NCBI RefSeq assembly: GCF_020169415.1
Contig: NZ_JAIULG010000006.1
Location: forward strand, 1-64,000
DNA length: 64,000 bases
Reading direction: 5' to 3'
DNA from: Tsukamurella sp. M9C
Lineage (GTDB): Bacteria; Actinomycetota; Actinomycetes; Mycobacteriales; Mycobacteriaceae
Both the position numbers and the translations under genes were made by a program. Numbering within the stretch: the first letter of the stretch is position 1; the number at the start of each line of letters is the position of its first letter. The notes beneath the pieces were generated by a model, which ran no database searches, was not told the origin of the DNA, and worked only from the letters and a program-made list of their open reading frames with translations. This document shows, piece after piece, positions 4,335 to 63,983 of the stretch.

Positions 4335-4337
4335 CAA

Positions 4338-42685: not shown

Positions 42686-44071
42686 TCACACCGACGCGGG
42701 GATCCCGGGCACCGCGTTCGGATCCTCGCGCACCGCCCGGCCGTTCGTCTCCTTGAGGAAGTAGGCGCTGGCGAGGGTCACCAGGCCCATGGCGGCGAGG
42801 TAGACCGAGACGAACGTGGAGGACTGCGTCTCGGCGATGATGGCGGTCATGATCAGCGGGGCGACGCCCGAGACGGCGACCGCTGCCAGCTGGTAGGCCA
42901 GCGAGGCACCCGAGTAGCGGATCCGGGGCTCGAAGAGCTCCGCCATGAACGCGGCGAGCGGGCCGTAGGTGAGCGCCTGCCCGAAGCTGGAGACGAACAT
43001 CGCGACCAGCAGCAGCCCGATGTTCGTGGTCTCCGCGAGCCAGAAGAACGGGAACGCCCAGGCGATGAGCACGGCGCCGCCGACCAGGATCAGCGGGCGG
43101 CGACCGACGCGGTCGGACACCGCACCCGCGGCCATGATCACGAGCGGCATGACGACCGAGGTGGCGAGCACGCACGCCAGGATCGAGTTGCTGCTCATGC
43201 CCAGGCCGCCCGCGGAGGGCTTCTTGCTGCCGTAGCTCACGAAACCGGCGATGGAGACGTAGAACGCGGAGTTGGTGCCGGCCAGCAGCCCGGCGCCGAG
43301 CAGGATCTTTCCCCAGTGCCCCCGGATCGCCTCGGACAGCGGCGCCGCGGCGACCGTCTCCTTGCCCGCGTTCTTGGCCGCGACCTCGCGCTGGAGGGCG
43401 AGGAACTCCGGCGAATCCTCGATCTTCTTGTGGATGTACATGACGACCGGCACCAGGATCGCGCTGGCCCAGAAGGGCACGCGCCAGCCCCAGCTGAGGA
43501 ACGCGGCGTCGTCGAGGACGCCGTTCATCAGGATCATCATCAGGTTGCCCAGCAGCAGGCCGAGCGGAACGCCCATCTGCCCGAAGGTCCCGGCGAATCC
43601 CCGCTTCTTCGGTCCTGCGGACTCGGTGAGCAGGAGCACCACACCGCCCCATTGGCCGCCGCATGCGAGGCCCTGGACGAAGCGCAGGGACACCAACAGG
43701 ATCGGGGCGAGCGAGCCGATCGCGCTCGCGGTGGGCAGGCAGCCGATGAGGAAGGTGGCCGCCCCCATCGCGGTCAGACACCAGATGAGCATCGGCTTGC
43801 GGCCGATCTTGTCGCCGAAGTGCCCGGCCAGGATCCCGCCCAGCGGCCGGGCGATGAAGCCCACCGAGAACGTCGCGAAGGCCATCAGCGTGCCCATCAG
43901 CGGCGAGAGGTCCGGGAAGAAGACCTTGTCGAACACCAGGGCTGCGGCGGTGCCGTAGACGAAGAAGTCGTACCACTCGATCGAACTGCTCACCAGTCCG
44001 GCGGTGAGCAGCTTGCCGTGCGACTTCTTCTTCACCGGCGCGACGGCACCGGGCTCGCTGGTCTGTGTCAT
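42686..44071 (-). CDS. MFS transporter, metabolite:H+ symporter (MHS) type
   Basis: A 461-residue protein with 12 membrane helices. The MHS family start SSSIEWYDFFVYGTAAAL, the loop motif GHFGDKIGRKPML and RFVQGLACGGQWGG identify the ShiA/ProP/KgtP branch. These are proton symporters for organic acids such as shikimate, citrate or dicarboxylates. ATG 44071 has GGGCC upstream. A promoter (TTGACT-17-CATTCT) lies at 44109-44137. Its neighbours are catabolic, so uptake of a carboxylic acid is likely. Confidence 0.9.
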   Translation of the reverse strand: MTQTSEPGAVAPVKKKSHGKLLTAGLVSSSIEWYDFFVYGTAAALVFDKVFFPDLSPLMGTLMAFATFSVGFIARPLGGILAGHFGDKIGRKPMLIWCLTAMGAATFLIGCLPTASAIGSLAPILLVSLRFVQGLACGGQWGGVVLLLTESAGPKKRGFAGTFGQMGVPLGLLLGNLMMILMNGVLDDAAFLSWGWRVPFWASAILVPVVMYIHKKIEDSPEFLALQREVAAKNAGKETVAAAPLSEAIRGHWGKILLGAGLLAGTNSAFYVSIAGFVSYGSKKPSAGGLGMSSNSILACVLATSVVMPLVIMAAGAVSDRVGRRPLILVGGAVLIAWAFPFFWLAETTNIGLLLVAMFVSSFGQALTYGPLAAFMAELFEPRIRYSGASLAYQLAAVAVSGVAPLIMTAIIAETQSSTFVSVYLAAMGLVTLASAYFLKETNGRAVREDPNAVPGIPASV

Positions 44072-44154: not shown

Positions 44155-44170
44155 CTAAGCGTTTGCTTAC
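44155..44170. promoter_or_regulatory. Degenerate copy of the CTAAGCG palindrome
   Basis: CTAAGCGTTTGCTTAC matches the operator CTAAGCGCTCGCTTAG (62497-62512, 63926-63941) at 13 of 16 positions. It lies in the divergent region between the MFS and lipase-like genes. Confidence 0.5.
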
Positions 44171-44245
44171 GCAGCTGGGAGACCGTTTCCAGTGCTTCGG
44201 ACCCGTTCGGCACCGGCTCCGGCCCCGATCACGTACAAAGAGCAC

Positions 44246-45178
44246 ATGGCACTCCTCGAACCCGATTTCCCGTCCGCCAACGGCCGCGACACCGTCCACG
44301 CCTGGATCTACACGCCGGTCCGCGAGCCCCGCGCGATCGTGCAGGTGATCCACGGCCTCGGCGAGCACTCGCGCCGGTACCTGCGCCTGATCACGGCGCT
44401 GCTCGACGCCGGCTTCGTGGTGGCCGCCGAGGACCACGCGGGACACGGCGCGACGGCGATGGACTCGGGCGTGTGGGGCGACGCGGGCGAGGACGCGGCG
44501 CACGTCCTCGTCGCCGACGCCGCCGCGCTCCGCGCGAAGGTCCGGGAACTCCACCCGGGCCTGCCCTACGTCGCCTTCGGGCACTCGATGGGCTCGATGA
44601 TCGCCCGCGGGCTCGCCACCGCGCAGCCGGACGGGATCGACGGCCTGGTGCTGTGCGGGATCGCCGCGCAGATCGCCGGGATCGACGGTGTCGTCGACCG
44701 CGCGGCGCTCGCTGCTGAGCCCGATCAGGCCGGGCCCGCGCCCGCGCACTACGTCGGAGAGCTGTTCGACGGCTTCGTCTCCCGGTTCGGCGCGGGCGCG
44801 GGCCCCACCGACTGGGTCGCGCGGGACGCGGACGTCGTGCGGGACCACGCGGTCGACCCGTTCAACAACTTCGGCGCCCCGCTGTCGGCCCGGTTCCTGC
44901 GCGGCTTCATCGAGTTGTACGACGCCGCGAACGGCGACGCCTTCTACGCCGCACTCCGTCCCGAGACCCCCGTGCTGATCCTCGCCGGCGACCAGGATCC
45001 GGTCGCCAACTACGGCGAGGGCGCGTACCACGTGGCCAACGCCCTCGTCGCGTCCGGACACCCCGACGTGCGGACGCGCGTCTACCCCGGTGTGCGGCAC
45101 GAGGTGCACAACGAGCCCGAGACCCGCGACGACGTGACCGCCGAGCTCATCGCCTTCGTCGAGCGCGTGATCGCCTGA
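44246..45178 (+). CDS. Monoacylglycerol-lipase-like alpha/beta-hydrolase
   Basis: A 310-residue serine hydrolase of the Hydrolase_4 / lysophospholipase-monoacylglycerol lipase group. The oxyanion motif is VIHGLGEHSRRY, the nucleophile elbow GHSMGS (S114), the acid LAGDQDPV, and the histidine GVRHEVHN. It should cut acyl esters such as monoglycerides. ATG 44246 is chosen; TACAAA lies 6 nt upstream. The LysR gene starts 1 nt after its stop, so they are co-transcribed. Confidence 0.88.
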   Translation: MALLEPDFPSANGRDTVHAWIYTPVREPRAIVQVIHGLGEHSRRYLRLITALLDAGFVVAAEDHAGHGATAMDSGVWGDAGEDAAHVLVADAAALRAKVRELHPGLPYVAFGHSMGSMIARGLATAQPDGIDGLVLCGIAAQIAGIDGVVDRAALAAEPDQAGPAPAHYVGELFDGFVSRFGAGAGPTDWVARDADVVRDHAVDPFNNFGAPLSARFLRGFIELYDAANGDAFYAALRPETPVLILAGDQDPVANYGEGAYHVANALVASGHPDVRTRVYPGVRHEVHNEPETRDDVTAELIAFVERVIA

Positions 45179-46109: not shown

Positions 46110-46139
46110 TCGATACTTGACATCGATATTCATCGGTAA
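46109..46139 (+). promoter_or_regulatory. Repeated ATCGAT sites before the FAH operon
   Basis: ATCGAT at 46109-46114 and 46122-46127 and ATCG at 46132 surround a TTGACA (46117-46122). The spacing of about 10-13 nt suggests a protein-binding array on one DNA face, plausibly for the LysR regulator. A matching -10 box is not clear. Confidence 0.4.
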
Positions 46140-46219
46140 CCCCTGTGCCTCCGGCGGCGCTAGCGTCGAGGGAGATCGACCGCGAATCCGTCGAAATCCA
46201 CCGGAAAACAGGAGCTCTC

Positions 46220-47197: not shown

Positions 47198-47224
47198 TCT
47201 GTCCGCTACGGAGAAAGGTCCACC

Positions 47225-48157: not shown

Positions 48158-48162
48158 GTTCG

Positions 48163-49397: not shown

Positions 49398-49398
<1 letters not shown>
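48163..49398 (+). CDS. Thiolase-family protein (SCP-x / lipid-transfer type)
   Basis: A 411-residue thiolase-fold protein. The nucleophile is C87 in NVENACASGSS, and the His is in SGGLESKGHPLAATG. The second catalytic Cys of classic thiolases (CxG) is missing; the segment reads LALAENGGGF. The tail QLRGEAGARQVDGARLAL is typical of SCP-x/Ltp-type members, some of which are aldolases that need a DUF35 partner. No DUF35 gene is nearby. ATG 48163 with AGGAG is preferred over GTG 48154. Confidence 0.85.
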
Positions 49399-50942
<1,544 letters not shown>

Positions 50943-50972: not shown

Positions 50973-52493
50973 TCAGCGCGAGCCCCGCAGCTCCCGCTTG
51001 AGGATCTTGCCGGTGCCGCCCTTGGGCAACTCGGCGAGCAGGTGGATCTCGCGCGGGTACTTGTACGCCGCCAGGCGCTCCCGGCTGAACGCGGTGAGGG
51101 CCGCGGCGTCGGCATTCGCGCCCGGGCGCAGGACGACGAAGGCGACGACCTCCTCCCCCAGCCTGTCGTCGGGGCGGCCCACGACGGCGGCCTCGACGAC
51201 CTCGGGGTGGGCGTAGAGCACCTCCTCGACCTCGCGGGGATACACGTTGTATCCGCCGCGGATCACCAGGTCCTTGAGCCGGTCGACGATGAAGAAGTAA
51301 CCGTCCTCATCGCGGTAGCCGAGGTCGCCCGTGTGCAGCCAGCCGTTGCGCAGCGCCTCCGCAGTCGCCTCGGGACGCTTGTAGTACCCCTTCATGACGT
51401 TGTGCCCGCGGACGACGATCTCGCCGATGTTGTCCTCCCCGGGCGGGAGCTCGGCACCGTCGAGGTCGACGGCCCGCATCTGGACGCCCCAGATGGGCTT
51501 GCCGATCGAGAGGACCTTGCGCTGTTCGGCGCTGATGTTGAAGGTCGCCGTCGAGGCGGTCTCCGAGAGGCCGTAGCCCTCGAGGATCGCCAGGCCCGGG
51601 AACTTCTCCTCGAAGGCGCTGATCACGCCGCCGGGGATCGACGCACCGCCGGAGACGGCGGCGCGCAGGCTGGAGACGTCGCGGCCGGCCGTGTCGACGC
51701 CGAGCAGCGCCACGTACATCGTGGGCACGCCGGAGAGCACCGTGACGCGGCGCCGCTCGATGACGTCGACCACCGCCTCCGCCTCGAACCTCGGCACCAG
51801 GGCCACCGAACCGCCGTATCGGACCGCCGCGTTGAGCACGCTGGACAGTCCGAAGACGTGGAACAGCGGCAGCGCTCCGAGCGCCACGTCGTCGTCCCGC
51901 ATCCCGAACAGCTGCGGCGCGATCGTGCAGTTCATGTAGAGCTCGAAATGCGTGAGCTCAGCGCCCTTCGGCCGGCCGGTGGTGCCTGAGGTGTAGAGCA
52001 GCACGGCGGTGTCGTCGGAGCTCGTGGGGTGGATCTCCCCGGAGTCCGGCTCCCCCAACAGGTCGGCGAACGGTGTCGCGCCCGACGGGGTCGGCGCGCC
52101 GAGCGAGACCACGACCACGTCGCCGACGCCCGCCTCCGCCGCGCCCGCGAGCGCGGCCTCGGCGGAGAAGTCGGACGCCACGAGCAGCTTCGCGTCGCTG
52201 TCACCGAGGTGGTAGCCGATCTCCGGCGCGGTGAACAGCGGGTTGAGCGGCACCATCGTCAGGCCCGCCTTGAGGATGCCGAAGTAGGCGACCACGAACT
52301 CCGGCAGGTTCGGCAGTTGGACGGCGACCTTGTCGCCGGGGACGAGGCCGCGGGCCAGCAGCGAGGCGGCGAGACGCCCCGACTGCTCGTCGAGCTGGGA
52401 GTAGCTGATCTCGCGATCACCGAAGAACAGCAGGGGCGCGTCGGGCGTCGACGATGCCGACTCGCGCAGCATCGTCGCCAGGTTGAAGGACAT
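50973..52493 (-). CDS. Long-chain-type acyl-CoA ligase (FadD)
   Basis: A 506-residue ligase: YTSGTTGRPKGAE phosphate loop, EGYGLSETAST, WLHTGDLGYRDEDGYFFIVDRLKDLVI and PKGGTGKILKREL. It is the last gene of the 12-gene minus-strand operon. It begins one base after the stop of the lactonase-like gene, with GGAGAGG inside that gene. Its likely role is to activate the (4-hydroxy) acid that the lactonase releases; this is an inference from context. Confidence 0.9.
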   Translation of the reverse strand: MSFNLATMLRESASSTPDAPLLFFGDREISYSQLDEQSGRLAASLLARGLVPGDKVAVQLPNLPEFVVAYFGILKAGLTMVPLNPLFTAPEIGYHLGDSDAKLLVASDFSAEAALAGAAEAGVGDVVVVSLGAPTPSGATPFADLLGEPDSGEIHPTSSDDTAVLLYTSGTTGRPKGAELTHFELYMNCTIAPQLFGMRDDDVALGALPLFHVFGLSSVLNAAVRYGGSVALVPRFEAEAVVDVIERRRVTVLSGVPTMYVALLGVDTAGRDVSSLRAAVSGGASIPGGVISAFEEKFPGLAILEGYGLSETASTATFNISAEQRKVLSIGKPIWGVQMRAVDLDGAELPPGEDNIGEIVVRGHNVMKGYYKRPEATAEALRNGWLHTGDLGYRDEDGYFFIVDRLKDLVIRGGYNVYPREVEEVLYAHPEVVEAAVVGRPDDRLGEEVVAFVVLRPGANADAAALTAFSRERLAAYKYPREIHLLAELPKGGTGKILKRELRGSR

Positions 52494-53477
52494 CTACGCC
52501 TCTCCGGTCAGCACGCGGCGCGGGACGTCCACGAGCATGGTGTCGATCTGGTCCTGGCTCACGCCGCGCTCGAGGACGTACGGGAAGACGTCGTCGAAGA
52601 CGTGCGTGTAGTGCCACTGGAGCATGCCCGCCTTGACGTTCGGGTCGATCCAGTCGATGTAGCAGGAGGCGTCCTGGGACAACACGATCTTCTCGGTGTA
52701 GCCGCGGCGCACCATCTCGATGAGGGTGTCGTTGCGGGCCTCGAATGTGGTCTCCAGGTTGATGCCGAACCGGTCGAACCCCAGCGTGAAGCCGGCGTCG
52801 GCGAGCGCCGACAGGTGCTCGACGTCGGTGGAGTCGCCGCTGTGCCCCAGCACGATCCGGCTCGGGTCGACGCCCTCCTCGTCGCACATCACTCGTTTCA
52901 CCAGCAGACCGGTCTCCGAGCCCGGGTGCGTGTGCACGGTGATCGGCACGCCGGTGGCGGTGTGCGCCTTCGCGACCGCCCGCATCACCCGCTCGACGCC
53001 CTCGGTGAGGCCGTGGTGGTCGATCGCGCACTTGAGCATGCCGGCCTTGACCCCGGTCTCGCCGATGCCCTCCGTGATGTCGCGGACGAACATGTCCGCC
53101 ATCGGATCCGGGAAGTCGATCCCCGTCATGGCGGTCAGGGCGGGACCGCGGTACATGAAGTAGCGCGGCACGTCGCGGTAGGTGTAGACACCCGTCGCCG
53201 CAACGATCCGCACGGGCGTGCGCTCGGCGATCCGCTGGATCCGTGGGATGTACCGTCCGAGACCGACCACCGTCGGGTCGACGATCGTGCGCACCCCGGC
53301 GTCGTACGCCTTCTGCAATTGTGCGACGGCGTCGTCCACCCGGGCGTCCTCGTCGCCGAAGTCGTCCGGATAGTTCTGTTGGATGTCCGGGGTGAGCACG
53401 AAGACGTGCTCGTGCATGAGCGTGACGCCGAGGTCGGCGGCGTCGACGTCACCGGTGACGGTGTGGACGGCTCCCAT
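52494..53477 (-). CDS. Phosphotriesterase-like lactonase (PLL)
   Basis: A 327-residue amidohydrolase with a binuclear metal centre: MHEHVFV (first two His), the carboxylated Lys region GVKAGMLKCAID, VHTHPGSETG, LGHSGDS and the Asp in LSQDASCYIDW. The segment TGVYTYRDVPRYFMYRG and the overall pattern resemble archaeal and mycobacterial phosphotriesterase-like lactonases, which open gamma- and delta-lactones to hydroxy acids. It sits inside a beta-oxidation operon between a CoA ligase and acyl-CoA dehydrogenases. This favours lactone metabolism over organophosphate hydrolysis. Confidence 0.85.
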   Translation of the reverse strand: MGAVHTVTGDVDAADLGVTLMHEHVFVLTPDIQQNYPDDFGDEDARVDDAVAQLQKAYDAGVRTIVDPTVVGLGRYIPRIQRIAERTPVRIVAATGVYTYRDVPRYFMYRGPALTAMTGIDFPDPMADMFVRDITEGIGETGVKAGMLKCAIDHHGLTEGVERVMRAVAKAHTATGVPITVHTHPGSETGLLVKRVMCDEEGVDPSRIVLGHSGDSTDVEHLSALADAGFTLGFDRFGINLETTFEARNDTLIEMVRRGYTEKIVLSQDASCYIDWIDPNVKAGMLQWHYTHVFDDVFPYVLERGVSQDQIDTMLVDVPRRVLTGEA

Positions 53478-53506
53478 GGTTCCTACTTTCCGACGGTGTG
53501 TTCTTC

Positions 53507-54589
53507 TCAGGCGGGGAGGTCGATCAGGCCCGCGAGCGCGGCGCGGTGTCGCCCCGGAGTACCGAGGCCGATCTGGTCCGCCTTGGCGCGCTTGAGGTAC
53601 AGGTGCACCGGCGCCTCCCAGGTCATGCCGATGCCGCCGTGCAGCTGCACCGCCTCCCCCGCCGCCCGGACGGCCAGGTCCGAGCAGTACGCGGCCGCGA
53701 CGGCCACGGCGATCACGGCCTCCGGGTCCTCGGTCCCGAGCTCCGCCAGGGCGACCGTCGCCGACCGCGCCGCCGCGGCGGCGGATTCCGCATCGGCGTA
53801 GAGCTCCGCCAGGCGGTGCTTCACGGCCTGGAAGCCACCGACCACGCGCCCGAACTGCTTGCGCTGCTTCAGGTACTCGACGGTCGTGGCGACGCACCAG
53901 CGCGCCACCCCGGCCTGTTCGGCGGCGAGCAGCGCCGCGCCGGTGATCAGACCCGCGCGCACGGCGGCGGCACCGTCGGCCGTGAGGACCGTGCCCCGGG
54001 CGCCGTCGAAGGTCACGTCCGCCACCTGCCGCGTCATGTCGAGCGACGACACGGGTTCGATCCGCGCGTCGGCCGCCGGAACCGCCTGCAGGGCACCGTC
54101 GGAGTCGAGCACGAGCAGGATCTCGGCGCCGAGCGCGCCGGCCACCGATCGGACGGTGCCGGAGAGGGCGCCGTCGGCGACGGGGACGGCCGGGGCGTTG
54201 CCGTGCGGGTCCACCGAGAACGGCACGACCAACGCGGCCACGCGCGCGCCCTCGGCCAGCTGCCCGGCCAGGACCGGGGCGCCCGCCGCGACCGCGACCG
54301 ACGCCGCGATCGCCGACGTGAGGAAATCACCCGCCGCGCAGGCGGAGCCGAGCTCCTCGGCGACCACGCCCGCGACGGCGGCGCCCGCCCCGGCGCCGCC
54401 CAGCTCCTCCGGAACGAGGAGGCCGGTGACGCCCATCTCCGCGAGCTCGGCCTGCAGGCCAGGGGCGGCGGCACCGTCGTAGGCGGCGATCAGGTCCGCC
54501 GGCGCGACCCGCCGATCGAGCAGGTCGCGGACGGCGGCGCGAAGATCGTCCTCGATGTCGCTGCTGAGCAGCTGCGGTGTGTAGCTCAC
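53507..54589 (-). CDS. Acyl-CoA dehydrogenase, small-subunit type
   Basis: A 360-residue acyl-CoA dehydrogenase family protein. The N-terminal domain is shortened and variable. The C-terminal FAD side has QRKQFGRVVGGFQAVKHRLAELY and AVQLHGGIGMTWEAPVHLYLKRA. The usual late catalytic Glu loop (EG-T) is absent. This and the next gene look like the two halves of a heteromeric (alpha2-beta2) dehydrogenase, as in mycobacterial steroid FadE pairs. GTG 54589 overlaps the stop of the partner gene (GTGA). Confidence 0.85.
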   Translation of the reverse strand: MSYTPQLLSSDIEDDLRAAVRDLLDRRVAPADLIAAYDGAAAPGLQAELAEMGVTGLLVPEELGGAGAGAAVAGVVAEELGSACAAGDFLTSAIAASVAVAAGAPVLAGQLAEGARVAALVVPFSVDPHGNAPAVPVADGALSGTVRSVAGALGAEILLVLDSDGALQAVPAADARIEPVSSLDMTRQVADVTFDGARGTVLTADGAAAVRAGLITGAALLAAEQAGVARWCVATTVEYLKQRKQFGRVVGGFQAVKHRLAELYADAESAAAAARSATVALAELGTEDPEAVIAVAVAAAYCSDLAVRAAGEAVQLHGGIGMTWEAPVHLYLKRAKADQIGLGTPGRHRAALAGLIDLPA

Positions 54590-55773
54590 TTGGGGACGTC
54601 CTTCCAGGGCAGGTCCTTGTCGACCCGGTGCTCCGGCGGCAGGCCGAGCACCCGTTCCGCCACGATGTTCTTGAGGATCTCCGACGTGCCGCCCTCGATG
54701 GAGTTTCCCTTGGCGCGCAGGTAGCGGTACCCGGCATCGCGGCCGTAGAAGTCCACCCGGTCGGGGCGGACCATGGTCCAGTCGCCGTACCGCAGGCCGT
54801 CCTCGCCGAGCAGCTCCAGCTCGAGGCCGGAGAGCTTCTGATTGAGCCGGGCGAAGGAGAGTTTCATCGCCGCGCCCTCGGGGCCGGGCTGGCCCGAGGC
54901 GAGCTTCTGGCCGAGGCGCAGCGCGGTGACCCGGGCGACCTCGCTGTCCACCCACAGGCGGAGCAGGTCGTCGTGCAGGTCGGGCGTGCGAAGCTCGGGC
55001 CGCTCGCGCCAGGTGGCGGCGACCACGCCGATCATGCCGTCCTCGCGCTGCGACGCCCGGCCGCCGATGGCGACCCGCTCGTTGTTGAGCGTGGCGTTCG
55101 CGACCTGCCAGCCCTGCCCCACCGCGCCCAGGCGGTGCGCGTCCGGGATGCGGACGCCCTCGAGGAAGACCTCGTTGAACTCCGCCTCGCCGGTGATCTG
55201 CCGCAGGGGCCGCACGTCGATGCCCGGGTCGGACATGTCGCACAGGAAGTAGGTGAGCCCCTTGTGTTTCGGCTGGTCCGGGTCGGTGCGGGCGACGAGG
55301 ATCGCCCACTGCGCGTTGTGCGCGCCGGAGGTCCACACCTTCTGCCCGGTGACGATCCAGTCGTCGCCGTCGCGGACCGCACGAGTCGCGAGGCCCGCGA
55401 GGTCGGAGCCCGCGCCGGGCTCACTGAACAGCTGGCACCAGATCTCCTCGCCGGTCCACAGCGGCCGCAGGAAGCGGTCGATCTGGTCCTGCGTGCCGAA
55501 GGCCAGGATCGTCGGCGCGGCCATCCCGAGGCCGATCCCGTTGACATGACTGCGGTTGTCGGGTGCGCCGGCCGCCGCGAAGCGGGCGTCCACGGCCTGC
55601 TGCAGCGATCGCGAGAGCCCCAGGCCGCCGCGCCCCTCGGGGTAGGCGACCCACGCCAGACCCGCGTCGTACCGGGCGCGGACGAACTCGAGCGGATCCG
55701 TCGTGGCCGGCGGGTGCGCGGCGAGGAAGTCGTCGACCTTCCGGGCGAGGTCCTCCGGGCCCGGCGCCGTCAC
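54586..55773 (-). CDS. Acyl-CoA dehydrogenase, catalytic-subunit type
   Basis: A 395-residue dehydrogenase. [17 protein letters not shown] and [21 protein letters not shown] form the central beta domain. The C-terminal domain has [25 protein letters not shown], with the Glu position expected for catalysis in this subfamily. It is sandwiched between two other dehydrogenases with 4-nt overlaps on both sides. It probably forms a complex with the product of 53507-54589. Confidence 0.88.
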
Positions 55774-56999
55774 TGCGCCTTCTTGGCGGCGACGCGCTTG
55801 AGCTCCGCTCGGGCCAGCGAGTTCTTGTGCACCTCGTCGGGGCCGTCGGCGAACCGCAGGGTGCGAATGCCGGCGTAGTACTCGGCGAGCGGGAAGTCCT
55901 GCGACAGTCCACCGGCGCCGTGCGCCTGGATGGCCTTGTCGAGGATCCACTGCACCGTCTGCGGGGTGGCGATCTTGATCGCCTGGATCTCGGTGTGGGC
56001 GCCGCGGTTGCCCACGGTGTCCATCAGCCACGCGGTCTTGAGCACGAGCAGGCGCAGCTGCTCGATCCGCACGCGCGACTCGGCGATCCAGTCGCGGATC
56101 ACGCCCTGCTCCGACAGCGGCTTGCCGAACGCGGTCCGGCCCGCCACGCGATCGCACATCAGCTCGACGGCCCGCTCCGCCACGCCGATCGAGCGCATGC
56201 AGTGGTGGATGCGGCCGGGCCCGAGGCGGGCCTGCGCGATGGCGAAACCGTCGCCCTCCTCGCCGATCAAGTTGGCGGCGGGGACACGGACGTCGGTGAA
56301 CCGCATCTCGGCGTGGCCGCCGTGGCTGTGGTCGTCGTACCCGAAGACCTCCATGCCGCGCAGCACCTCCAGGCCCGGGGTGTCCCGCGGCACGAGGATC
56401 TGCGACTGCTGGCGGTGGCGCTCGGCGTCGGGCGCCGTCTTGCCCATGACTATGAAGATCTTGCAGTTCGGGTTCATGGCGCCCGTGATCCACCACTTGC
56501 GGCCGTTGATCACGTAGTCGTCGCCGTCGCGGACGATCGACAGGCCGATGTTGGTGGCGTCGGAGCTGGCGACGTCGGGCTCCGTCATCGCGAAGGCGGA
56601 ACGGATCTCGCCGTTCAGGAGCGGGGTGAGCCACTGCTCCTTCTGCGCGGCGGTACCGAACTCGTTGAGCACCTCCATGTTCCCCGTGTCCGGGGCGGCA
56701 CAGTTGAACACGGCGGGCGCGAGGTGCAGGCTGCGGCCGGAGATCTCGGCGAGGGGCGCGTACTGCAGGTTGGTCAGGCCCGCGCCGTTCTCGCCGGGAA
56801 GGAAGAAGTTCCAGAAGCCGCGGCTGCGGGCCTCGGCGCGCAGCTCGTGCAGGACCGGGGCGCTGTCCCAGGCCCAACGGTTCTCCAGCGCGCCGAGTTG
56901 CTGGTGGAAGGTCTCCTCCGCCGGGTAGACGTGGCTGTCCATGAAGTCGTTGACCTGTCCGATCAACTCCGTGGTCTTGGCGTCGTACGCGAAATCCAT
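55770..56999 (-). CDS. Acyl-CoA dehydrogenase of the ACAD10/ACAD11 type
   Basis: A 409-residue dehydrogenase whose C-terminal half follows the ACAD10/11 pattern: [44 protein letters not shown], then [14 protein letters not shown] and [13 protein letters not shown] (384-391). The usual YEGT glutamate loop is replaced by ADGPDEVH. Mammalian ACAD10/11 and bacterial relatives turn 4-phospho-acyl-CoA into enoyl-CoA by losing phosphate. Directly upstream (1-nt gap) lies the matching kinase, supporting that role here. Confidence 0.88.
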
Positions 57000-57000
57000 G

Positions 57001-58017
57001 TCAGTTCTCCTTCAGTGCGTCGAGTCCGGCGTCGAGCAGCGGGTTCACTGCCTCCCCGGCCTCGGCAAAGCCCTCGCCCACGGTCTGGCCGTTGACGTAG
57101 CGGTAGTGGATGCCCTCGACGATGCCTGCGAGCTTGAAGCAGGAGAGGGCGATGTAGAAGCCGAAATCCCCAAGTTCCCGGGAGGATCCGGCGGCGTAGC
57201 GGTCGATGATCTGCTGCTCGTCGAGGAAGCCGGGCGCCTCGCTCACGTCGCTGACGGTGCCGGCGGAGATCTTCGCCAGCCGCCCGTAGACCACCATGAG
57301 CGCGAGGTCGGTGAGCGAGTCGCCGATGGTCGCGAGCTCCCAGTCGACGACGGCGGCGGGCTCGTCCTGCGGCGAGACCAGCACGTTGTCGAGGCGGTAG
57401 TCGCCGTGCACGATGCCCGGCACCGCATCGGCGGGCACCCGTCCCTCGAGAGCGGTGAACAGCTCGTCGACCTTGGGCAGGTCGCGGGTGTGCGCCGCGG
57501 CGAACTGCTTGCGCCAGCGCTGTACCTGCCGGCCCAGGAAGCCCTCGGGGCGGCCGTAGTCGCCGAGCCCGACGCTCGCGGGATCGACGTGGTGCAGCTC
57601 GACGAGGGTGTCGACCAGCCGCTCGGAGATGGCGCGGGTGCGGTCGACGCCGAGCGCCTCCAGCTCCGTCGCCCGGCGGTAGGGGACGCCGTCGATCTCG
57701 CTCATCACGTAGAACGGCGCACCGAGCACTTCGGGGTCGTCGCAGTAGGCGTACATCACCGGGACCGGCACGGCGGTTCCGCCGAGCGCGGACATCATCC
57801 GGTACTCGCGGCCCATGTCGTGCGCCGACGGCAGGAGCTTGCCGACCGGCGGGCGGCGCAGGATCCAGGACGAGGCACCGTCGGAGATGCGGTACGTGAG
57901 GTTGGACTTGCCGCCCGCGATGAGGACGGCCTCGAGCTGCGATCCCGCGCCCTGCACGTGCTGCGGGAGCCACGTGCCGAGGACGTCGAGATCGAGGCCC
58001 GGGTGCTGCTCGGCCAT
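57001..58017 (-). CDS. Phosphotransferase (APH family), ACAD10/11-kinase-like
   Basis: A 338-residue kinase of the aminoglycoside-phosphotransferase fold. The nucleotide loop lies near [11 protein letters not shown], the catalytic loop is VHGDYRLDN (H204-G-D206) and the metal-binding DWE is at 225-227. It matches the kinase domain that in mammals is fused to ACAD11 and ACAD10 and corresponds in role to LvaA of levulinate catabolism. It should phosphorylate the 4-hydroxy group of a hydroxyacyl-CoA. Antibiotic resistance is unlikely given the operon. ATG 58017 overlaps the MaoC stop by one base. Confidence 0.88.
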
Positions 58018-58469
58018 CAGAAGACCACCACGGAGACGGTCTCGGCGACGCACGCGGGACGGTCGCCGCCCTCGCGCTCGATGGTCACGCGCGCGACGAC
58101 CTGCTGGCCGCCGCCGCCCGGGGTGACCGAGACGAGCTCGACCCCGGCCCGCACGCGCGAGCCGACCGGCACCGGCGCGGGGAAGCGGACCTTGTTGCTG
58201 CCGTAGTTGACGCCCATCTTCGTGCCCTCGACGGTGTAGATCTGCCACACCAGCATCGGGATGAGGGACAGGGTCAGGTAGCCGTGGGCGATGGTCGAGC
58301 CGAACGGCCCGGCCTTCGCCTTCTCCGGGTCGACGTGGATCCACTGGTGGTCCCCGGTGGCGTCGGCGAACAGGTCGATCCGCTTCTGGTCGATCTCGAC
58401 CCAGTCGCTGTAGCCGAGGTGCTCCCCCACGGCCGCCTGCAGTTCCTCGAGTCCGTTGAGTACCCGCAT
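58017..58469 (-). CDS. MaoC-like (R)-enoyl-CoA hydratase
   Basis: A 150-residue single hot-dog protein. The hydratase motif DLFADATGDHQWIHVDPEKA holds the catalytic D40 and H45, followed by GPFGSTIAHGYLTLSL. It adds water to 2-enoyl-CoA, giving (R)-3-hydroxyacyl-CoA. It fits directly after the dehydrogenase/kinase step, whose product is an enoyl-CoA, and before the SDR upstream in the operon. It lies 28 nt after the FabG-like gene. Confidence 0.9.
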   Translation of the reverse strand: MRVLNGLEELQAAVGEHLGYSDWVEIDQKRIDLFADATGDHQWIHVDPEKAKAGPFGSTIAHGYLTLSLIPMLVWQIYTVEGTKMGVNYGSNKVRFPAPVPVGSRVRAGVELVSVTPGGGGQQVVARVTIEREGGDRPACVAETVSVVVF

Positions 58470-58497
58470 GTTTCTCGTCTCCTCGTCCTGTCCGGAC

Positions 58498-59250
58498 CTA
58501 GTCCTTGGGCCCGCCGGCCACGTACAGCACCTGGCCCGAGACGAAGCCCGCGCCCTCGCTGGCGAAGAAGCTGGCGGCGTGCGCGATGTCCGCGGGCTCG
58601 CCGACGCGCTGCACCGGGATCTCCTTGGCGGAGAAGGCCTTGAAGTCCTCGAAGGGCACGCCGATGCGCTCGGCGGTGGCGGCGGTCATGTCGGTCGCGA
58701 TGAAGCCGGGGGCGATCGCGTTCGCGGTCACGCCGAACTTGCCGAGCTCGATGGCGAGGGTCTTGGTGAGGCCCTGCATGCCGGCCTTCGCCGCGGAGTA
58801 GTTCGCCTGGCCGCGGTTGCCCAGCGCCGAGGTCGAGGACAGGTTGACGATGCGGCCCCAGCCCTCCTTGGTCTGGTACTTCTGCACCTCGCGCGACATC
58901 AGGAAGGCGCCGCGCAGGTGGACGGCCATGACCTGATCCCAGTCCGAGACGGACATCTTGAACAGCAGGTTGTCGCGCAGGATGCCCGCGTTGTTGATCA
59001 GGATCGTGGGGGCGCCGAGCTCGTCGGCGACGCGGGTGACCGCGGCCGTGACCTTCTCCTCGTCGGAGACGTCGACGCCGACGCCGATGGCGCGGCCGCC
59101 GGCGGCGGTGATCTGATCGGCGACCGCCCGGCAGGCGGCGTCGTCGAGGTCGAGGACGGCGACGGCGTGCCCGTCGGAGGCGAGGCGGCGGGCCACCTCG
59201 GCGCCGATGCCGCGGGCGGCTCCGGTCACGATGGCGATGCGCTGGGTCAT
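58498..59250 (-). CDS. FabG-like 3-oxoacyl reductase / 3-hydroxyacyl-CoA dehydrogenase (SDR)
   Basis: A 250-residue short-chain dehydrogenase. The cofactor motif is TGAARGIG, NNAG follows, and the Ser-Tyr-Lys triad is in NLSSTSALGNRGQANYSAAK. The sequence is close to FabG4-like enzymes. A role in oxidising the (R)-3-hydroxyacyl-CoA made by the MaoC hydratase is likely. ATG 59250 follows AAGGAGA, 11 nt after the HAD gene. Confidence 0.9.
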   Translation of the reverse strand: MTQRIAIVTGAARGIGAEVARRLASDGHAVAVLDLDDAACRAVADQITAAGGRAIGVGVDVSDEEKVTAAVTRVADELGAPTILINNAGILRDNLLFKMSVSDWDQVMAVHLRGAFLMSREVQKYQTKEGWGRIVNLSSTSALGNRGQANYSAAKAGMQGLTKTLAIELGKFGVTANAIAPGFIATDMTAATAERIGVPFEDFKAFSAKEIPVQRVGEPADIAHAASFFASEGAGFVSGQVLYVAGGPKD

Positions 59251-59261
59251 GGGGTTCTCCT

Positions 59262-59924
59262 TCAGGGGTGGATGGATGTGCCGGCCAGTGCGGGAACGAG
59301 TTCCCGCAACGCCGTCCGGGTGGTGCCGGCATCGGTGTGGTGGATCGCGTGGATGCCCAGGGCGGCCGCGCCCGCGACGTTGGGAGTCGCGTCGTCGATG
59401 AAGGCGGCGCGCTCGGGCGGCACGCCGAGGCGCTCGAGGGCCAGCCGGAAGATCGCGGGATCGGGCTTGCGCAGCCCCACCTCCTCCGAGATGATCACCG
59501 GCGCGAAGAGCGCCGCGAGACGCTCCCGGGGATAGAGGTTCCCGCCGCCCCAGCTGTTGGAGACGATCGCCACCGGCACGCCCGCGGCGCGCAGGTCCTC
59601 GGCGAGCGCCCACATGGCCGGATCCTCCTGGATCCGAGCGAACATGCGGCGCAGGACGCCGTCGGGGTTCACGGGATCGCCCGAGACGGTGCGCAGCGCC
59701 GCGGCGAAGGCGGCGTCGAACTCGGGCTCGGGCAGCTCGCCGGTCTCGAGCCGGTGGATGGGGCTGCCGGCGTCGGCATCCCGGCCCAGCCAGGCCTTGA
59801 GGGTCGCCGTGAAGCTCGCCGGCTCGATCCCCTCGTCGGCGATCCACGCCTCGATGCTGTGCCGCATCGGCGCGGTGAGGACGCCGCCGTAGTCGAAGAG
59901 GACCGCGCCGATCTCGGCGGTCAC
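59262..59924 (-). CDS. HAD-superfamily hydrolase (ACAD10 N-domain-like)
   Basis: A 220-residue HAD phosphatase. Motif I is LFDYGGVLT (nucleophile D11; the second Asp of DxD is replaced by Gly, as in epoxide-hydrolase N-terminal and ACAD10 HAD domains). Motif II is VSNSWGG, III is GLRKPDPAIF and IV is FIDDATPNV. In mammalian ACAD10 a HAD domain precedes kinase and dehydrogenase, and here all three are genes of one operon. It could remove misplaced phosphate or act regulatorily. GTG 59924 overlaps the quinone oxidoreductase stop (GTGA). Confidence 0.86.
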   Translation of the reverse strand: MTAEIGAVLFDYGGVLTAPMRHSIEAWIADEGIEPASFTATLKAWLGRDADAGSPIHRLETGELPEPEFDAAFAAALRTVSGDPVNPDGVLRRMFARIQEDPAMWALAEDLRAAGVPVAIVSNSWGGGNLYPRERLAALFAPVIISEEVGLRKPDPAIFRLALERLGVPPERAAFIDDATPNVAGAAALGIHAIHHTDAGTTRTALRELVPALAGTSIHP

Positions 59925-60910
59925 TGGGCCGCCTGGTAGACCACGCGGCCCACCGTGGTGCCGTCGCCGAGGCGCTGCAGGCCGTCGGGGACGGCGTCGA
60001 AGGCGAGGCGCTCGCTCACGAGCGGGCTCACCAGGCCCTGGTCGGCGAGGGCGGTCAGCTCCGCGTGGCACTGCTGCACCGCGGCCGAGTCGTAGGCGTT
60101 GTACAGGCCCCAGTGCAGTCCGACGATCGAGTAGTTCTTGATCAGCGCGTGGTTCAGGGCGGCCTCCTGAATGGTGCCGCCGGCGAAGCCCACGACGAGG
60201 ATCCGGCCCTCGAAGGCGATGCACTTGGTGGAGCGCTTGTAGGTGTCGCCGCCGACCGGGTCGTAGATCACGTCGGCGCCGCGGCCACCGGTCTCGGCCT
60301 TGACCACCTCGACGAAGTCCTGGGTGCGCCGGTCGACGACCACGTCGGCGCCCAGCTCTCGGGCGACCTCCGCCTTCTCCGCTCCGCCGACGACGCCGAT
60401 GACCCTGGCGCCCGCGGCCTTGCCGAGTTGGATCGCGGCGCTGCCGACGCCGCCCGCCGCGGCGTGCACCAGGAGGGTCTCGCCCGCTTGCAGGTGCGCG
60501 CGGCGGTGCAGCCCGAACCAGCCGGTCTGGTAGCCGATGTACAGCGACGAGGCCTGCGCGTCGTCGAGTGAAGCGGGCGCCGGGAACGCCTGTGCCGCGT
60601 TCAGCACCGCGTACTCGGCGAACCCTCCGGACGGGAGCGCCGAGCCGCCGAGGACGCGCTGCCCCACGGTGAAGCCTTCGACGCCCTCGCCGACGGCGAC
60701 GACCTCGCCGCACAGCTCCACGCCGGGCGTGAAGGGCAGGTCCGGCTTGACCTGGTAGAGGCCGCGGCACATGAGCACGTCGGGGAAGTTCGCCGCCGTC
60801 GCGAGCGTGCGGACGGTGAGCTGCCCGGGACCCGGATCGGGCGTCGGGGCGTCGACCTCGCGGAGCACCGCGAGCGGCTCACCCAGTTCCTGTACCTGCC
60901 AGGCCCTCAT
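59921..60910 (-). CDS. NADPH:quinone oxidoreductase-family enzyme
   Basis: A 329-residue zinc-free MDR protein: AANFPDVLMCRGLYQVKPDLPFTPG in the GroES part, and LVHAAAGGVGSAAIQLGKA in the Rossmann part. It probably reduces an enone, enoyl-CoA or quinone linked to the pathway. ATG 60910 overlaps the stop of the SDR gene upstream by 4 nt, so translation is coupled. It differs clearly from the oxidoreductase at 3206-4198. Confidence 0.86.
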   Translation of the reverse strand: MRAWQVQELGEPLAVLREVDAPTPDPGPGQLTVRTLATAANFPDVLMCRGLYQVKPDLPFTPGVELCGEVVAVGEGVEGFTVGQRVLGGSALPSGGFAEYAVLNAAQAFPAPASLDDAQASSLYIGYQTGWFGLHRRAHLQAGETLLVHAAAGGVGSAAIQLGKAAGARVIGVVGGAEKAEVARELGADVVVDRRTQDFVEVVKAETGGRGADVIYDPVGGDTYKRSTKCIAFEGRILVVGFAGGTIQEAALNHALIKNYSIVGLHWGLYNAYDSAAVQQCHAELTALADQGLVSPLVSERLAFDAVPDGLQRLGDGTTVGRVVYQAAQ

Positions 60911-61713
60911 CGGCCGCTCTCCTTCGTCTCGAGTCGCTGCTGCAGTTTGTTCATGCCGTGCAGCCACTTGTCGGTCGCCGTCGCACGGACGGCGTAGTAG
61001 CCCGCCACCTCGGGGTGCGGGAGGATCAGGAACTCGTCGCCGGCGAGGGCGTCGACGGCGAGCGTCGCGACCTGCTCGGGCGTGAGGGCGGAGTCGCGGC
61101 TGAGCAGCTCCTCCAGTTCGCCGGAGCGCTCGAGCATGCCCGTCTTCACGCCCTGCGGGCAGATCGCCTGGACGACGACGCCGCGGTGGCGGTACGTCGC
61201 GGAGAGCCACTCGGCGAAGGCGACGGCGGCGTGCTTGGTCACGGAGTACGCGGGGGCGCCGAGCATGGTGAGCAGCCCCGCCGCGGACGCGGTGACCACG
61301 AACCGGCCGCCGCCACGCGCGGCCCACTCGGGCACGAGCAGCCGGGCGGCGCGCACGTGGGCCATCACGTTGACGTCCAGCGACAGCGCCCAGTCGGACT
61401 CCGGGGTCTCGAGGCCGCGCCCGCGGTCGATGCCGGCATTGGCGTACCAGGCGTCGACGGCGCCGAGCTCGCGGCGCGCGGTCTCGACGAGGGCGGCGAC
61501 GCCCTCCTCGGAAGCGGCGTCGCCGGGCGCGGCGTACGCGGTGCCGCCTGCGGCGGCGATCTCGGCGACGGTCCGCGCGGCACCGTCGGCGTCGAGGTCC
61601 GCGACCACGACGCGGGCGCCGCGCGCGGCGAGTTCGCGGGCGAGCGCCGCGCCGATGCCGTTGCCGGCGCCGGTGACGACGATGCCCTTGTCCTTCGGGT
61701 CGAAGGCGGCCAT
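60907..61713 (-). CDS. Short-chain dehydrogenase/reductase
   Basis: A 268-residue SDR. TGAGNGIGAAL is the cofactor site, NAG follows, and the active-site part is VTASAAGLLTMLGAPAYSVTKHA (Ser, Tyr, Lys). The C-terminal 60 residues extend the classical fold (ILPHPEVAGYYAVRATATDKWLHGMNKLQQRL). It may oxidise a hydroxyl of the substrate before or after CoA activation. The gap to the first operon gene is only 3 nt. Confidence 0.86.
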   Translation of the reverse strand: MAAFDPKDKGIVVTGAGNGIGAALARELAARGARVVVADLDADGAARTVAEIAAAGGTAYAAPGDAASEEGVAALVETARRELGAVDAWYANAGIDRGRGLETPESDWALSLDVNVMAHVRAARLLVPEWAARGGGRFVVTASAAGLLTMLGAPAYSVTKHAAVAFAEWLSATYRHRGVVVQAICPQGVKTGMLERSGELEELLSRDSALTPEQVATLAVDALAGDEFLILPHPEVAGYYAVRATATDKWLHGMNKLQQRLETKESGR

Positions 61714-61716
61714 CGG

Positions 61717-62469
61717 CTACACCCCGCCCGTGAGCAGGACGCCACCGTCGACGGTGAGCGTCTGCCCGGTCATCCAGGCGGCGTCGTCGGAGAGCAGGAA
61801 GGCGACGACCGAGCCGATGTCGTCGGGCACGCCGAGCCGCTTGAGCGGGTACGCGGCGGAGACCTGCTCCTCGCGGCCCTCGTACAGGGCGGTGGCGAAG
61901 CGGGTCTTGACGACGGCGGGCGCGACGGCGTTCACCCGGATGTCCGGGCCGAGCTCGACGGCGAGCTCCTCGGTGAGGTGGATGACCGCGGCCTTGGAGA
62001 CGCCGTAGAAGGCGATGCCGGGCGCGGGGCGCAGGCCGGCGACGGAGCCGACGTTGACGATGGCGCCGCCGTGCTCCTTCTGCCAGGCCGCATAGACCTT
62101 CTTCGTCCAGGACAGCGTGGAGAGCACGTTGACCTCGAAGATCTTGCGCGCGGCGGCCGTGTCGATCTCCATGAGCGGGCCGTAGACCGGGTTGATGCCG
62201 GTGTTGTTGACGAAGAAGTCGGCGCTGCCGAAGGTGTCGATCGCGGTGGCGATCACCTGGTCCTGATGCGCCTCGTCATCCCCCGAACCGGCCACGGCCA
62301 CAGCCACCTCGGGGCCGCCCAGCTCGGCGACGGCCGCGTCGAGCGCCTCCTGCTTACGTGCCGTGATGACGACCTTCGCGCCGTCGGCCACCAGCCGCTG
62401 CGCGATGGCCAGGCCGATGCCGCGGCTCGCTCCCGTGACGATCGCGGTCTTCCCGGCGAATCGGGTCAT
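61717..62469 (-). CDS. Short-chain dehydrogenase/reductase, first gene of the operon
   Basis: A 250-residue classical SDR: TGASRGIGLAIA, NNTG, NVGSVAGLRPAPGIAFYGVSK (active site) and a C-terminal WMTGQTLTVDGG. A 3-hydroxyacyl-CoA or other alcohol is a likely substrate. ATG 62469 is taken as start, with GGAAGG and GGAG upstream; a GTG at 62478 is possible. It directly follows the palindromic operator at 62497-62512 and opens the 12-gene operon. Confidence 0.87.
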   Translation of the reverse strand: MTRFAGKTAIVTGASRGIGLAIAQRLVADGAKVVITARKQEALDAAVAELGGPEVAVAVAGSGDDEAHQDQVIATAIDTFGSADFFVNNTGINPVYGPLMEIDTAAARKIFEVNVLSTLSWTKKVYAAWQKEHGGAIVNVGSVAGLRPAPGIAFYGVSKAAVIHLTEELAVELGPDIRVNAVAPAVVKTRFATALYEGREEQVSAAYPLKRLGVPDDIGSVVAFLLSDDAAWMTGQTLTVDGGVLLTGGV

Positions 62470-62496
62470 GCTCCACACACCTTCCGTTCAAACTGA

Positions 62497-62512
62497 CTAA
62501 GCGCTCGCTTAG
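62497..62512. promoter_or_regulatory. Palindromic operator of the 12-gene operon
   Basis: CTAAGCG-CT-CGCTTAG has perfect 7-bp arms, extended to 8 bp by flanking A/T. It lies 28 nt before the SDR start codon. The form is typical of TetR-family acyl-CoA-responsive repressors. An identical 16-mer precedes the thiolase gene. Confidence 0.8.
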
Positions 62513-62621
62513 TTTGTAGCCTACGACACACCGCGCCGTGTGACGACCCCCTTGGGCGCACGAACCCCTGTGACGCTCCTCACAGTACGGACCGTTGCGT
62601 GCGCACACCCCCGGAAACGAC

Positions 62622-62658
62622 GGAGCGGCCCGTACGTCGAGGACGTACGGGCCGCTCC
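62622..62658 (-). terminator. Terminator of the thiolase gene
   Basis: A perfect 17-bp stem (GGAGCGGCCCGTACGTC and complement) with a GAG loop starts 20 nt after the thiolase stop codon. It separates the thiolase from the operon downstream, so the two need separate promoters. The rest of 62470-62677 holds only the operator and promoter region. Confidence 0.85.
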
Positions 62659-62677
62659 GAGGGGCGTCAGACGCGGA

Positions 62678-63895
62678 TCAGCTGAGCCGCTCGATGATCA
62701 TCGCCATGCCCTGACCGCCGCCGACACACATGGTCTCGAGGCCGAACTGCTTGTCGTGCCACTGCAGCGAGTTGATGAGCGTGCTGGTGATGCGCGCGCC
62801 CGTCATGCCGAAGGGGTGACCCACGGCGATGGCGCCACCGTTGACGTTGACCTTGTCGGCGTCGATGCCCAGGTCGCGCACCGACGGGATCACCTGCGCC
62901 GCGAAGGCCTCGTTGACCTCCATGAGGTCGATGTCGCCGATCGACAGGCCGGCGCGCTGCAGCGCCTGCTTCGACGCCTCGACGGGGCCGAGGCCCATGA
63001 TCTCGGGCGACAGGCCCGTGACGCCGGTGGAGACGATGCGCGCGAGCGGCGTCAGGCCGAGCGCCTTGGCCTTCTCGTCGGACATGATCACCACGGCGGC
63101 CGCGCCGTCGTTGAGCGGACAGCAGTTGCCGGCCGTGACGGTGCCGTCCGGACGGAAGACCGGCTTGAGCCCGGCGATGCCCTCGTAGGTGACGCCGGCG
63201 CGCGGACCATCGTCCGTGGAGACGACGGTGCCGTCGGCGAGCGTGACCGGGGTGATGTCCTTGGCCCAGAAGCCCGAAGCGACGGCGGCCTCGGCGCGGT
63301 TCTGGCTGCGCACGCCCCACTCGTCCTGGTCCTGGCGGCTGACGTTCTTGAACTGCGCGACGTTCTCGGCGGTCTGCCCCATCGCGATGTAGACGTCCGG
63401 CAGGACGCCCGCCTCACGCGGGTCGACCCAGGTCTGGCCGCCGCCGGCGAAGGTCGCGGTGCGCGCCTCGGCGTCGGCGAAGAGGGCGTTCTTGGTGTCG
63501 GGCAGGCCGTCCGCGTTGCCCTTGATGTAGCGGCTCACGGTCTCGACGCCGCCGGAGATGAAGACGTCGCCCTCCCCCGCCTTGATCGCATGGAAGGCCA
63601 TGCGCGTGGTCTGCAGGCTCGAGCTGCAGTAGCGGTTGACGGTGACGCCGGGCAGGTGGTCGAGGCCGGCCTCGACGGCGACGACGCGGGCGATGTTGAA
63701 CCCCGACTCGCCCGCGGGCTGACCGCAGCCGAACATCAGGTCGTCGATCTCGCGGGGGTCGAGCCCGGGCACCTTGTCCAGGGCGGCGCGCACCATCTGG
63801 ACCGAGAGGTCGTCCGGACGGACGTCCTTGAGCGAGCCCTTCGCTGCACGCCCGATGGGCGACCGGGCGGTGGAGACGATGACGGCTTCGGGCAT
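62678..63895 (-). CDS. Acetyl-CoA C-acyltransferase (thiolase)
   Basis: A 405-residue classical thiolase with the full catalytic set: nucleophile C90 (NRYCSSS), the His in AVGHPFGMTGAR, and the second Cys in ETMCVGGGQG. NEAFAAQ is present. It would cleave 3-ketoacyl-CoA to acetyl-CoA or propionyl-CoA plus a shortened acyl-CoA. ATG 63895 follows a strong GGAGGT. It shares the CTAAGCG palindrome with the 12-gene operon, so it can supply that pathway's last step. Confidence 0.94.
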   Translation of the reverse strand: MPEAVIVSTARSPIGRAAKGSLKDVRPDDLSVQMVRAALDKVPGLDPREIDDLMFGCGQPAGESGFNIARVVAVEAGLDHLPGVTVNRYCSSSLQTTRMAFHAIKAGEGDVFISGGVETVSRYIKGNADGLPDTKNALFADAEARTATFAGGGQTWVDPREAGVLPDVYIAMGQTAENVAQFKNVSRQDQDEWGVRSQNRAEAAVASGFWAKDITPVTLADGTVVSTDDGPRAGVTYEGIAGLKPVFRPDGTVTAGNCCPLNDGAAAVVIMSDEKAKALGLTPLARIVSTGVTGLSPEIMGLGPVEASKQALQRAGLSIGDIDLMEVNEAFAAQVIPSVRDLGIDADKVNVNGGAIAVGHPFGMTGARITSTLINSLQWHDKQFGLETMCVGGGQGMAMIIERLS

Positions 63896-63925: not shown

Positions 63926-63983
63926 CTAAGCGCTCGCTTAGCGGTGTACCATCTACTCTGCACCACTGAGAGCCGGTCGTCAA
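63926..63983 (-). promoter_or_regulatory. Thiolase promoter with palindromic operator
   Basis: On the minus strand TTGACG (63983-63978), a 17-nt spacer and CAGAGT (63960-63955) give a plausible promoter. The perfect palindrome CTAAGCG-CT-CGCTTAG (63926-63941) follows just beyond the expected transcription start, where a bound repressor would block transcription. Confidence 0.7.

Follow-up and report, generated by a model that had tools for sequence, protein, structure and literature searches.

A TetR-linked operon of Tsukamurella with enzymes of the ACAD10/11 class and a probable role in 4-hydroxy acid breakdown

Which compound is degraded by an operon that combines a lactonase-like protein and a CoA ligase with separate relatives of the domains of the animal enzyme ACAD10? 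The question is raised by the first 64,000 nucleotides of contig NZ_JAIULG010000006.1 from Tsukamurella sp. M9C, hereafter the window (71.7% GC, from a genome of 4.73 Mb). It is probable, in our view, that this operon and a neighbouring thiolase gene make up a catabolic regulon for 4-hydroxy acids under TetR control, gamma-lactones being one plausible feed. Twelve tightly packed genes are read on the minus strand from 62469 to 50973, with intergenic gaps of -4 to +29 bp, and encode in order of transcription three short-chain dehydrogenases/reductases (SDR1 and SDR2, then SDR3 after an oxidoreductase of the PIG3 type and a haloacid dehalogenase-like (HAD) protein), a MaoC hydratase, an APH-fold kinase, three acyl-CoA dehydrogenases (ACADs: ACAD10-type, ACADb and ACADa), a phosphotriesterase-like (PTE) protein and the ligase. 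An earlier examination of the letters without database searches (the sequence-only reading) had proposed a minus-strand operon for lactone and 4-hydroxy acid catabolism: every gene that it named lies where it was placed, the operon is larger than supposed, and the PIG3-type protein (59921-60910) and two further ACADs had gone unmentioned. The features are as follows.

62497..62512, unstranded: operator CTAAGCGAGCGCTTAG before the operon, 27 bp before the start codon of SDR1; an exact copy also precedes the orthologous SDR1 gene in another genus (L050)
61717..62469, minus strand: SDR1, first gene of the operon, a glucose-1-dehydrogenase-like SDR scoring above the PRK07231 cut-off; likely an oxidoreductase acting at the acyl-CoA level
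60907..61713, minus strand: SDR2, which recurs directly beside ACAD10-type genes in other genera; candidate 4-oxo/4-hydroxy reductase with an LvaD-like role
59921..60910, minus strand: quinone oxidoreductase/alcohol dehydrogenase-like protein of the PIG3 group, below the cut-off of the PIG3 model
59262..59924, minus strand: HAD protein, motif I D-Y-G-G-V-L-T, with Gly in place of the second Asp and the remaining catalytic residues retained
58498..59250, minus strand: SDR3, FabG-like
58017..58469, minus strand: MaoC-type enoyl-CoA hydratase (PF01575, 104 bits)
57001..58017, minus strand: APH-fold kinase of the LvaA and ACAD10/11 kinase-domain class, catalytic D206 and D225
55770..56999, minus strand: ACAD of the ACAD10/11-LvaC type (phosphate-eliminating class), with R258, H266, R269 and D385
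54586..55773, minus strand: ACADb, subunit b of a heteromeric FadE/ChsE-like pair, best PDB matches 6wy9_A and 6wy8_B, then 4x28_A
53507..54589, minus strand: ACADa, subunit a of that pair, best PDB match 6wy8_A, with 4x28_D sixth
52494..53477, minus strand: PTE, a phosphotriesterase-like lactonase (PLL)
50973..52493, minus strand: AMP-forming acyl-CoA ligase, last gene of the operon
62678..63895, minus strand: classical thiolase, a separate transcription unit with the same operator
63926..63941, unstranded: operator CTAAGCGAGCGCTTAG between the thiolase gene and a divergent TetR gene, 30 bp before the thiolase start codon

The assignment of the kinase and of one of the three ACADs to the ACAD10/11-LvaA/LvaC class is well supported by sequence comparison. 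The ACAD scores 467 bits against ACAD11 (8v3u) versus 148 bits for the best ordinary ACAD, and its scores with 2wbi (455 bits) and 4hr3 (451 bits) are like that with ACAD11. The diagnostic residues R626, H634 and R637 and the catalytic Asp D753 of ACAD11, reported likewise for LvaC and ACAD10/11 (PMC12440821), correspond to R258, H266, R269 and D385 in the window protein (the chain numbering being one lower than that of the paper), and all four are invariant in the 12 aligned relatives. The kinase scores 189 bits against ACAD11, and its HGD Asp, D206, is equivalent to D220 of the ACAD11 paper and invariant in 10 of 10 relatives; its fold model matches both ACAD11 and choline kinases, such fold matches alone being no indication of function. 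The kinase motifs (HGD at 204-206, DWE at 225-227) and the ADGPDEVH loop of the ACAD, on which the sequence-only reading had built, are confirmed; its class assignment is upheld by the scores and by each catalytic residue checked, and its phrase "split ACAD10 parts" is apt for these two proteins. Since the same 4-phosphoacyl-CoA chemistry has been reported for LvaA/LvaC and for orthologues from B. pseudomallei (PMC11342911), we predict that it likely operates here too. Aminoglycoside resistance was rejected as a function of the APH gene, which reaches 40.7 bits with the NCBIfam APH(3') model against a cut-off of 205 versus 189 bits with the ACAD11 kinase, and an ordinary fatty-acid beta-oxidation operon was rejected from the class of the kinase and ACAD.

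The sequence analysis shows the gene content, the packing of the operon, the operator, the family class, the catalytic residues and the recurrence; from there on we infer each of the following reactions, their order, the inducer and the role of the HAD protein. A major facilitator superfamily (MFS) protein would import the compound, the PTE-like lactonase would open its ring and the ligase would form the 4-hydroxyacyl-CoA, the 4-hydroxyl of which would be phosphorylated by the kinase. The ACAD10/11-type flavoenzyme would then remove the phosphate through an oxidation-elimination-reduction cycle to yield a 2-enoyl-CoA, and hydration by MaoC, oxidation by an SDR and cleavage by the thiolase would complete one turn of beta-oxidation. 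Further turns or branched chains might be served by the heteromeric ACAD pair, the entry of 4-oxo acids by SDR2, and the HAD protein may restrain the kinase or clear stray 4-phosphoacyl-CoA.

The feed is best approached through Rhodococcus erythropolis NBRC 15567 (L224, L225), in which the TetR protein encoded ahead of the PTE gene aligns with the QsdR structure 4za6 over 186 residues with 383 bits, its sole PDB match at E 1e-10; this match identifies the locus as the qsd locus. Every one of the 14 protein families of the window locus has a relative, in rearranged order, within the roughly 19 kb that run from qsdA to a thiolase gene (a cluster of some 20 kb): PTE (57% identity), ligases (37 and 44%), MFS (61%), HAD (43%), MaoC (53%), SDR2 (49%), ACAD10-type (58%), SDR1 (49%), APH (37%), SDR3 (78%), ACADb (70%), ACADa (48%), the oxidoreductase (68%) and the thiolase (36%), with the ACAD and kinase motifs intact. 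The published three-gene qsd unit thus sits inside a larger cluster with HAD, ACAD10-type, APH, heteromeric ACAD pair and thiolase genes. Because all 14 families recur there, the Tsukamurella operon is, on sequence, a compact and differently regulated relative of the qsd cluster. Assimilation of gamma-caprolactone (GCL) is reported to require expression of qsdA and qsdC (PMC6476934), and QsdR is described as responsive to gamma-lactones (PMC6476934, PMC6262395). The later fate of the GCL product is given in these papers as oxidation or recycling; PMC3689677 has it enter the beta-ketoadipate pathway and the Krebs cycle by way of beta- or omega-oxidation. The accounts of the qsd operon consulted here name no genes beyond qsdR, qsdA, qsdC and a fadR-like neighbour, and the published genes end at CoA activation. 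By analogy, the comparison suggests that the ACAD10-type step is the missing middle of the gamma-lactone pathway of R. erythropolis. No paper mentioning both ACAD10 and lactonase came up in the literature searched; a 2013 Agronomy review, the lva paper and a 2012 gamma-caprolactone proteome paper, which lie outside it, may already treat later genes.

A second question concerns the HAD protein. Among 27 HADs, chosen from the genus or from the vicinity of lactonase, kinase, ACAD10-type or window-like genes and hence not random, motif I reads D-[YF]-G-G-V in every case (D11-x-G13); D11, N123, K153, D177 and D178 do not vary, and 26 of the proteins retain S122. The protein scores 89 bits with TIGR02247, below the cut-off of 125.4, this still being its best NCBIfam match by score, and its PDB matches include no ACAD10 HAD sequence. 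A search with this family over 119 genomes of the phylum (E 1e-20) gave 35 places in 30 genomes, and 30 of the places became loci; in 26 of these loci the motif-I pattern was matched, always as D-x-G and never as D-x-D, and four (L243, L252, L258, L260) gave no match. An APH gene lies within about 1.5 kb in 7 of the 29 loci other than the window, and one further locus has an ACAD10-type gene. The HAD domain of ACAD10 is reported to keep only the first Asp of DxD, to have negligible phosphatase activity and to restrain the kinase (PMC11342911), and the window HAD has lost its second Asp in the same way. In two Actinopolyspora loci (L215:1-2544, L222:44-2954), the order of transcription HAD, APH, ACAD10-type equals the domain order of the fused animal enzyme; a PTE gene lies about 7 kb away on the opposite strand. 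One may tentatively imagine, and we hold it rather doubtful, that animal ACAD10 is a fused bacterial operon, that the stand-alone D-x-G HAD of such actinobacterial clusters is ancestral to its HAD domain and is a brake or proof-reader dedicated to the kinase, perhaps standing in for the LvaB of Pseudomonas, and that the quorum-quenching gamma-lactone pathway of Rhodococcus proceeds via a 4-phosphoacyl-CoA.

It is quite conceivable, if somewhat short of an even prospect, that the HAD protein is instead an active housekeeping phosphatase that clears dead-end 4-phospho acids, a role compatible with the 4-hydroxy acid regulon proposed here. All 27 proteins retain the nucleophile Asp, the Lys and the Asp pair, and 26 the Ser; the predicted fold (predicted local distance difference test score, pLDDT, 89.1) is closest to the phosphatase domain of soluble epoxide hydrolase and to YihX, so that catalysis may be retained. 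YihX is described as a working phosphatase. YihX, too, has D-x-G. Against such a role, the mammalian ACAD10 HAD, with the first Asp only, is reported to show negligible phosphatase activity towards 4-phosphohexanoyl-CoA and, when mutated, to give a higher kinase output (PMC11342911).

Does the lactonase belong to the pathway? The window PTE is closest to 4if2 (367 bits) among solved structures, and its residues HEH, K147, H180, H209 and D266 (numbering of alignment A1), which we take to be the metal ligands, are invariant in 6 of 6 proteins. Our survey of 151 genomes of the family (E <= 1e-90) found 60 PTE places in 59 genomes, 51 of these places outside the genus. With an ACAD10-type neighbour defined as a gene product of at least 48% identity within a stretch of at most 20 kb, such a neighbour occurs at 15 of these 51 loci. 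In a set of 80 named loci, taken as the best among at least 564, it occurs at 19, and these 19 belong to Skermania, Rhodococcus, Mycolicibacillus, Gordonia (7), Streptomyces, Nocardia (2), Janibacter, Brevibacterium, Nesterenkonia, Nonomuraea and Actinopolyspora (2); the two genome sets overlap, so that the counts are not independent. An ACAD10-type gene at that identity is absent from all 20 control stretches (20 kb each, from such genomes), whose positions were chosen by hand rather than drawn at random. One control stretch (L273, G123) holds an ACAD10-type relative of 43% adjoining an APH relative of 38%, possibly a further subfamily.

On a tree of 120 PTEs, built by a quick method with support from the Shimodaira-Hasegawa-like approximate likelihood ratio test (SH-aLRT) only, the label "near ACAD10" requires 17 changes versus a mean of 31.7 for shuffled labels, and at least 9 of the 17 are forced by well-supported branches; the link is therefore clustered and yet present in several PTE clades. 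The stretches from which these labels are taken span 3 to 21 kb and in some cases stop at a contig end: L144-L146, with 10-kb flanks, miss the ACAD10-type gene seen for the same genomes in L100, L101 and L103 (within about 11 kb of the PTE), some stretches such as these three were positioned to include an ACAD10-type gene already seen, and L095 is counted as near among the 51 loci and as not near on the tree. A compact one-strand array of PTE, HAD, ACAD10-type and APH genes in Janibacter anophelis (L185:1397-8238) offers a small natural test system.

Several observations weigh against the proposed regulon or against its lactone branch. At orthologous loci of other genera (L046-L051, ACAD10 identity 69-83%), a PTE match is found in none of six, where the sequence-only reading had made the presence of the lactonase in orthologous operons its own test; three of these genomes (G074, G057, G008) carry a PTE elsewhere. 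Within the genus, 9 of 10 genomes have the PTE and one congener has no match at E 1e-90, and 61 of the 80 named loci lack an ACAD10-type gene in the stretch examined. The window PTE groups with L084-L096, apart from the QsdA clade (L100, L101, L103). Among the TIGR02247 proteins above the family cut-off (L231-L237), an APH match within about 1.5 kb occurs in 0 of 7, which weakens the association of the HAD protein and confines it to the below-cut-off relatives. The TetR protein beside the thiolase has 3him as its closest PDB match and KstR2 next among the named regulators (among the matches listed), while the QsdR structure 4za6 is not among the best 60 of its 124 PDB matches, so that it is KstR2-like rather than QsdR-like. 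The heteromeric ACAD pair resembles steroid-type enzymes unneeded for plain gamma-lactones, nor did we find enzyme or expression data on this organism.

Because it is absent at all six orthologous loci and from one congener, we regard the lactonase as an add-on and not an obligatory part. The survey of lactonase, kinase and ACAD neighbourhoods that the sequence-only reading had called for thus yields a recurrent association that is missing from the orthologues, and the gamma-lactone link it had drawn gains from this recurrence and from the R. erythropolis qsd locus, both indirect, and loses by the missing PTE. The same absences would be expected if the core (kinase, ACAD10-type ACAD, SDRs, MaoC and thiolase) degraded 4-hydroxy or 4-oxo fatty acids generally, with the PTE incidental and outside the flow, for instance in quorum-signal or ester hydrolysis; relatives of SDR2 also adjoin ACAD10-type genes more constantly than the PTE does. 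We nevertheless judge this unlikely, since the PTE is packed into the operon with gaps of 29 bp and, to the ligase gene, 0 bp, and recurs close to ACAD10-type genes in unrelated arrangements. That the locus degrades a bulky hydroxy acid or lactone derived from a terpenoid or steroid, with kinase and elimination removing a ring or side-chain hydroxyl, is more improbable still, the kinase scoring 189 bits with ACAD11 versus 52 bits with the steroid kinase 9fsg and no ring-degradation genes being seen in the operon.

As for control of the proposed 4-hydroxy acid regulon, the operator is a 16-bp inverted repeat (arms CTAAGCG and CGCTTAG around AG) with only two exact matches in the genome, before the operon and before the thiolase gene; that these two share an operator had been noticed from the letters. 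In another genus (L047), a TetR relative (59%), a site with 2 mismatches and a thiolase stand in a like arrangement. The TetR regulator, an MFS transporter and the qsd precedent had been overlooked in the sequence-only reading. The further features are these.

C77:63997-64677: TetR gene (TetR_N and PF17932), divergent from the thiolase gene and beginning at the window edge
42686..44071, minus strand: MFS transporter, probably of the same regulon
44155..44170, unstranded: operator-like site with 2 mismatches, between the MFS and alpha/beta hydrolase genes
44192..45178, plus strand: alpha/beta hydrolase (Hydrolase_4), divergent from the MFS gene; possibly an extra esterase of the regulon
45180-50942, plus strand: block of LysR, fumarylacetoacetate (FAA) hydrolase, metallo-beta-lactamase (MBL)-fold, thiolase (Thiolase_C_1 type) and CoA ligase genes

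The MFS gene lies beyond the operon end in 8 of 8 same-genus loci (L045, L084-L090), near-copies of the site at 44155-44170 occur in seven of them (not L085), and the hydrolase has a match in six, one at only 31%. Operator copies with 2 mismatches were rejected as significant alone, the pattern having 6 matches on one strand versus 20 for a backward control pattern. The block from LysR to ligase is absent at the corresponding place in all eight loci, which argues that it interrupts the locus in the window, probably as an insertion splitting the MFS and hydrolase genes from the operon. Elsewhere, tRNA genes for Val, Gly, Cys and Val lie at 280-900, near the window start, with a second tRNA-Gly(gcc) at 4263-4335, and the ACAD10-type protein is 97.6% identical to a protein on a plasmid record of Tsukamurella tyrosinosolvens.

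If correct, the proposed 4-hydroxy acid regulon would link the 4-phosphoacyl-CoA route of ACAD10/11 to the degradation of gamma-lactones and quorum signals in Rhodococcus, for which the accounts consulted leave open what follows CoA ligation. With its HAD, kinase and ACAD made as small individual proteins, this bacterial system would also make the role of the ACAD10 HAD domain directly testable. Compared with known systems, ACADa and ACADb, encoded by adjacent genes, match different subunits of the same heteromeric FadE-type structures (6wy8/6wy9, 4x28), enzymes that presumably have a steroid-type role, whereas no steroid ring or side-chain genes are seen alongside the window pair. The qsd operon of R. 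erythropolis (QsdR, QsdA, QsdC) shares a PTE-like lactonase directly followed by a CoA ligase, but has another regulator family and a PTE of another clade, and the window has 12 genes in one apparent operon; strict qsd membership was rejected on the regulator (no divergent QsdR-type TetR) and the PTE clade. In mammalian ACAD10/ACAD11, the kinase and ACAD domains are strongly similar to the window proteins, with conserved catalytic residues, and the HAD of ACAD10 has only the first Asp of DxD, like the window HAD (PMC11342911); the mammalian domains are fused, whereas the window proteins are separate, with SDR3 and MaoC between HAD and kinase. The lva operon of Pseudomonas putida (LvaA kinase, LvaC ACAD, LvaE ligase, LvaD reductase) has in common a kinase, a phosphate-eliminating ACAD, a CoA ligase and an SDR, the window ACAD carrying the diagnostic residues reported for LvaC and ACAD10/11 (PMC12440821). 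Strict lva membership was rejected for want of an LvaB-sized gene, the absence of which the sequence-only reading had noted; the operon gaps of at most 29 bp leave no room for one, the rest of the genome not having been searched for LvaB. To the common parts the window adds a lactonase, HAD, MaoC, thiolase, a heteromeric ACAD pair and a TetR/operator system, so that the locus is ordinary by its parts and new by their combination, a variant of the 4-phosphoacyl-CoA route.

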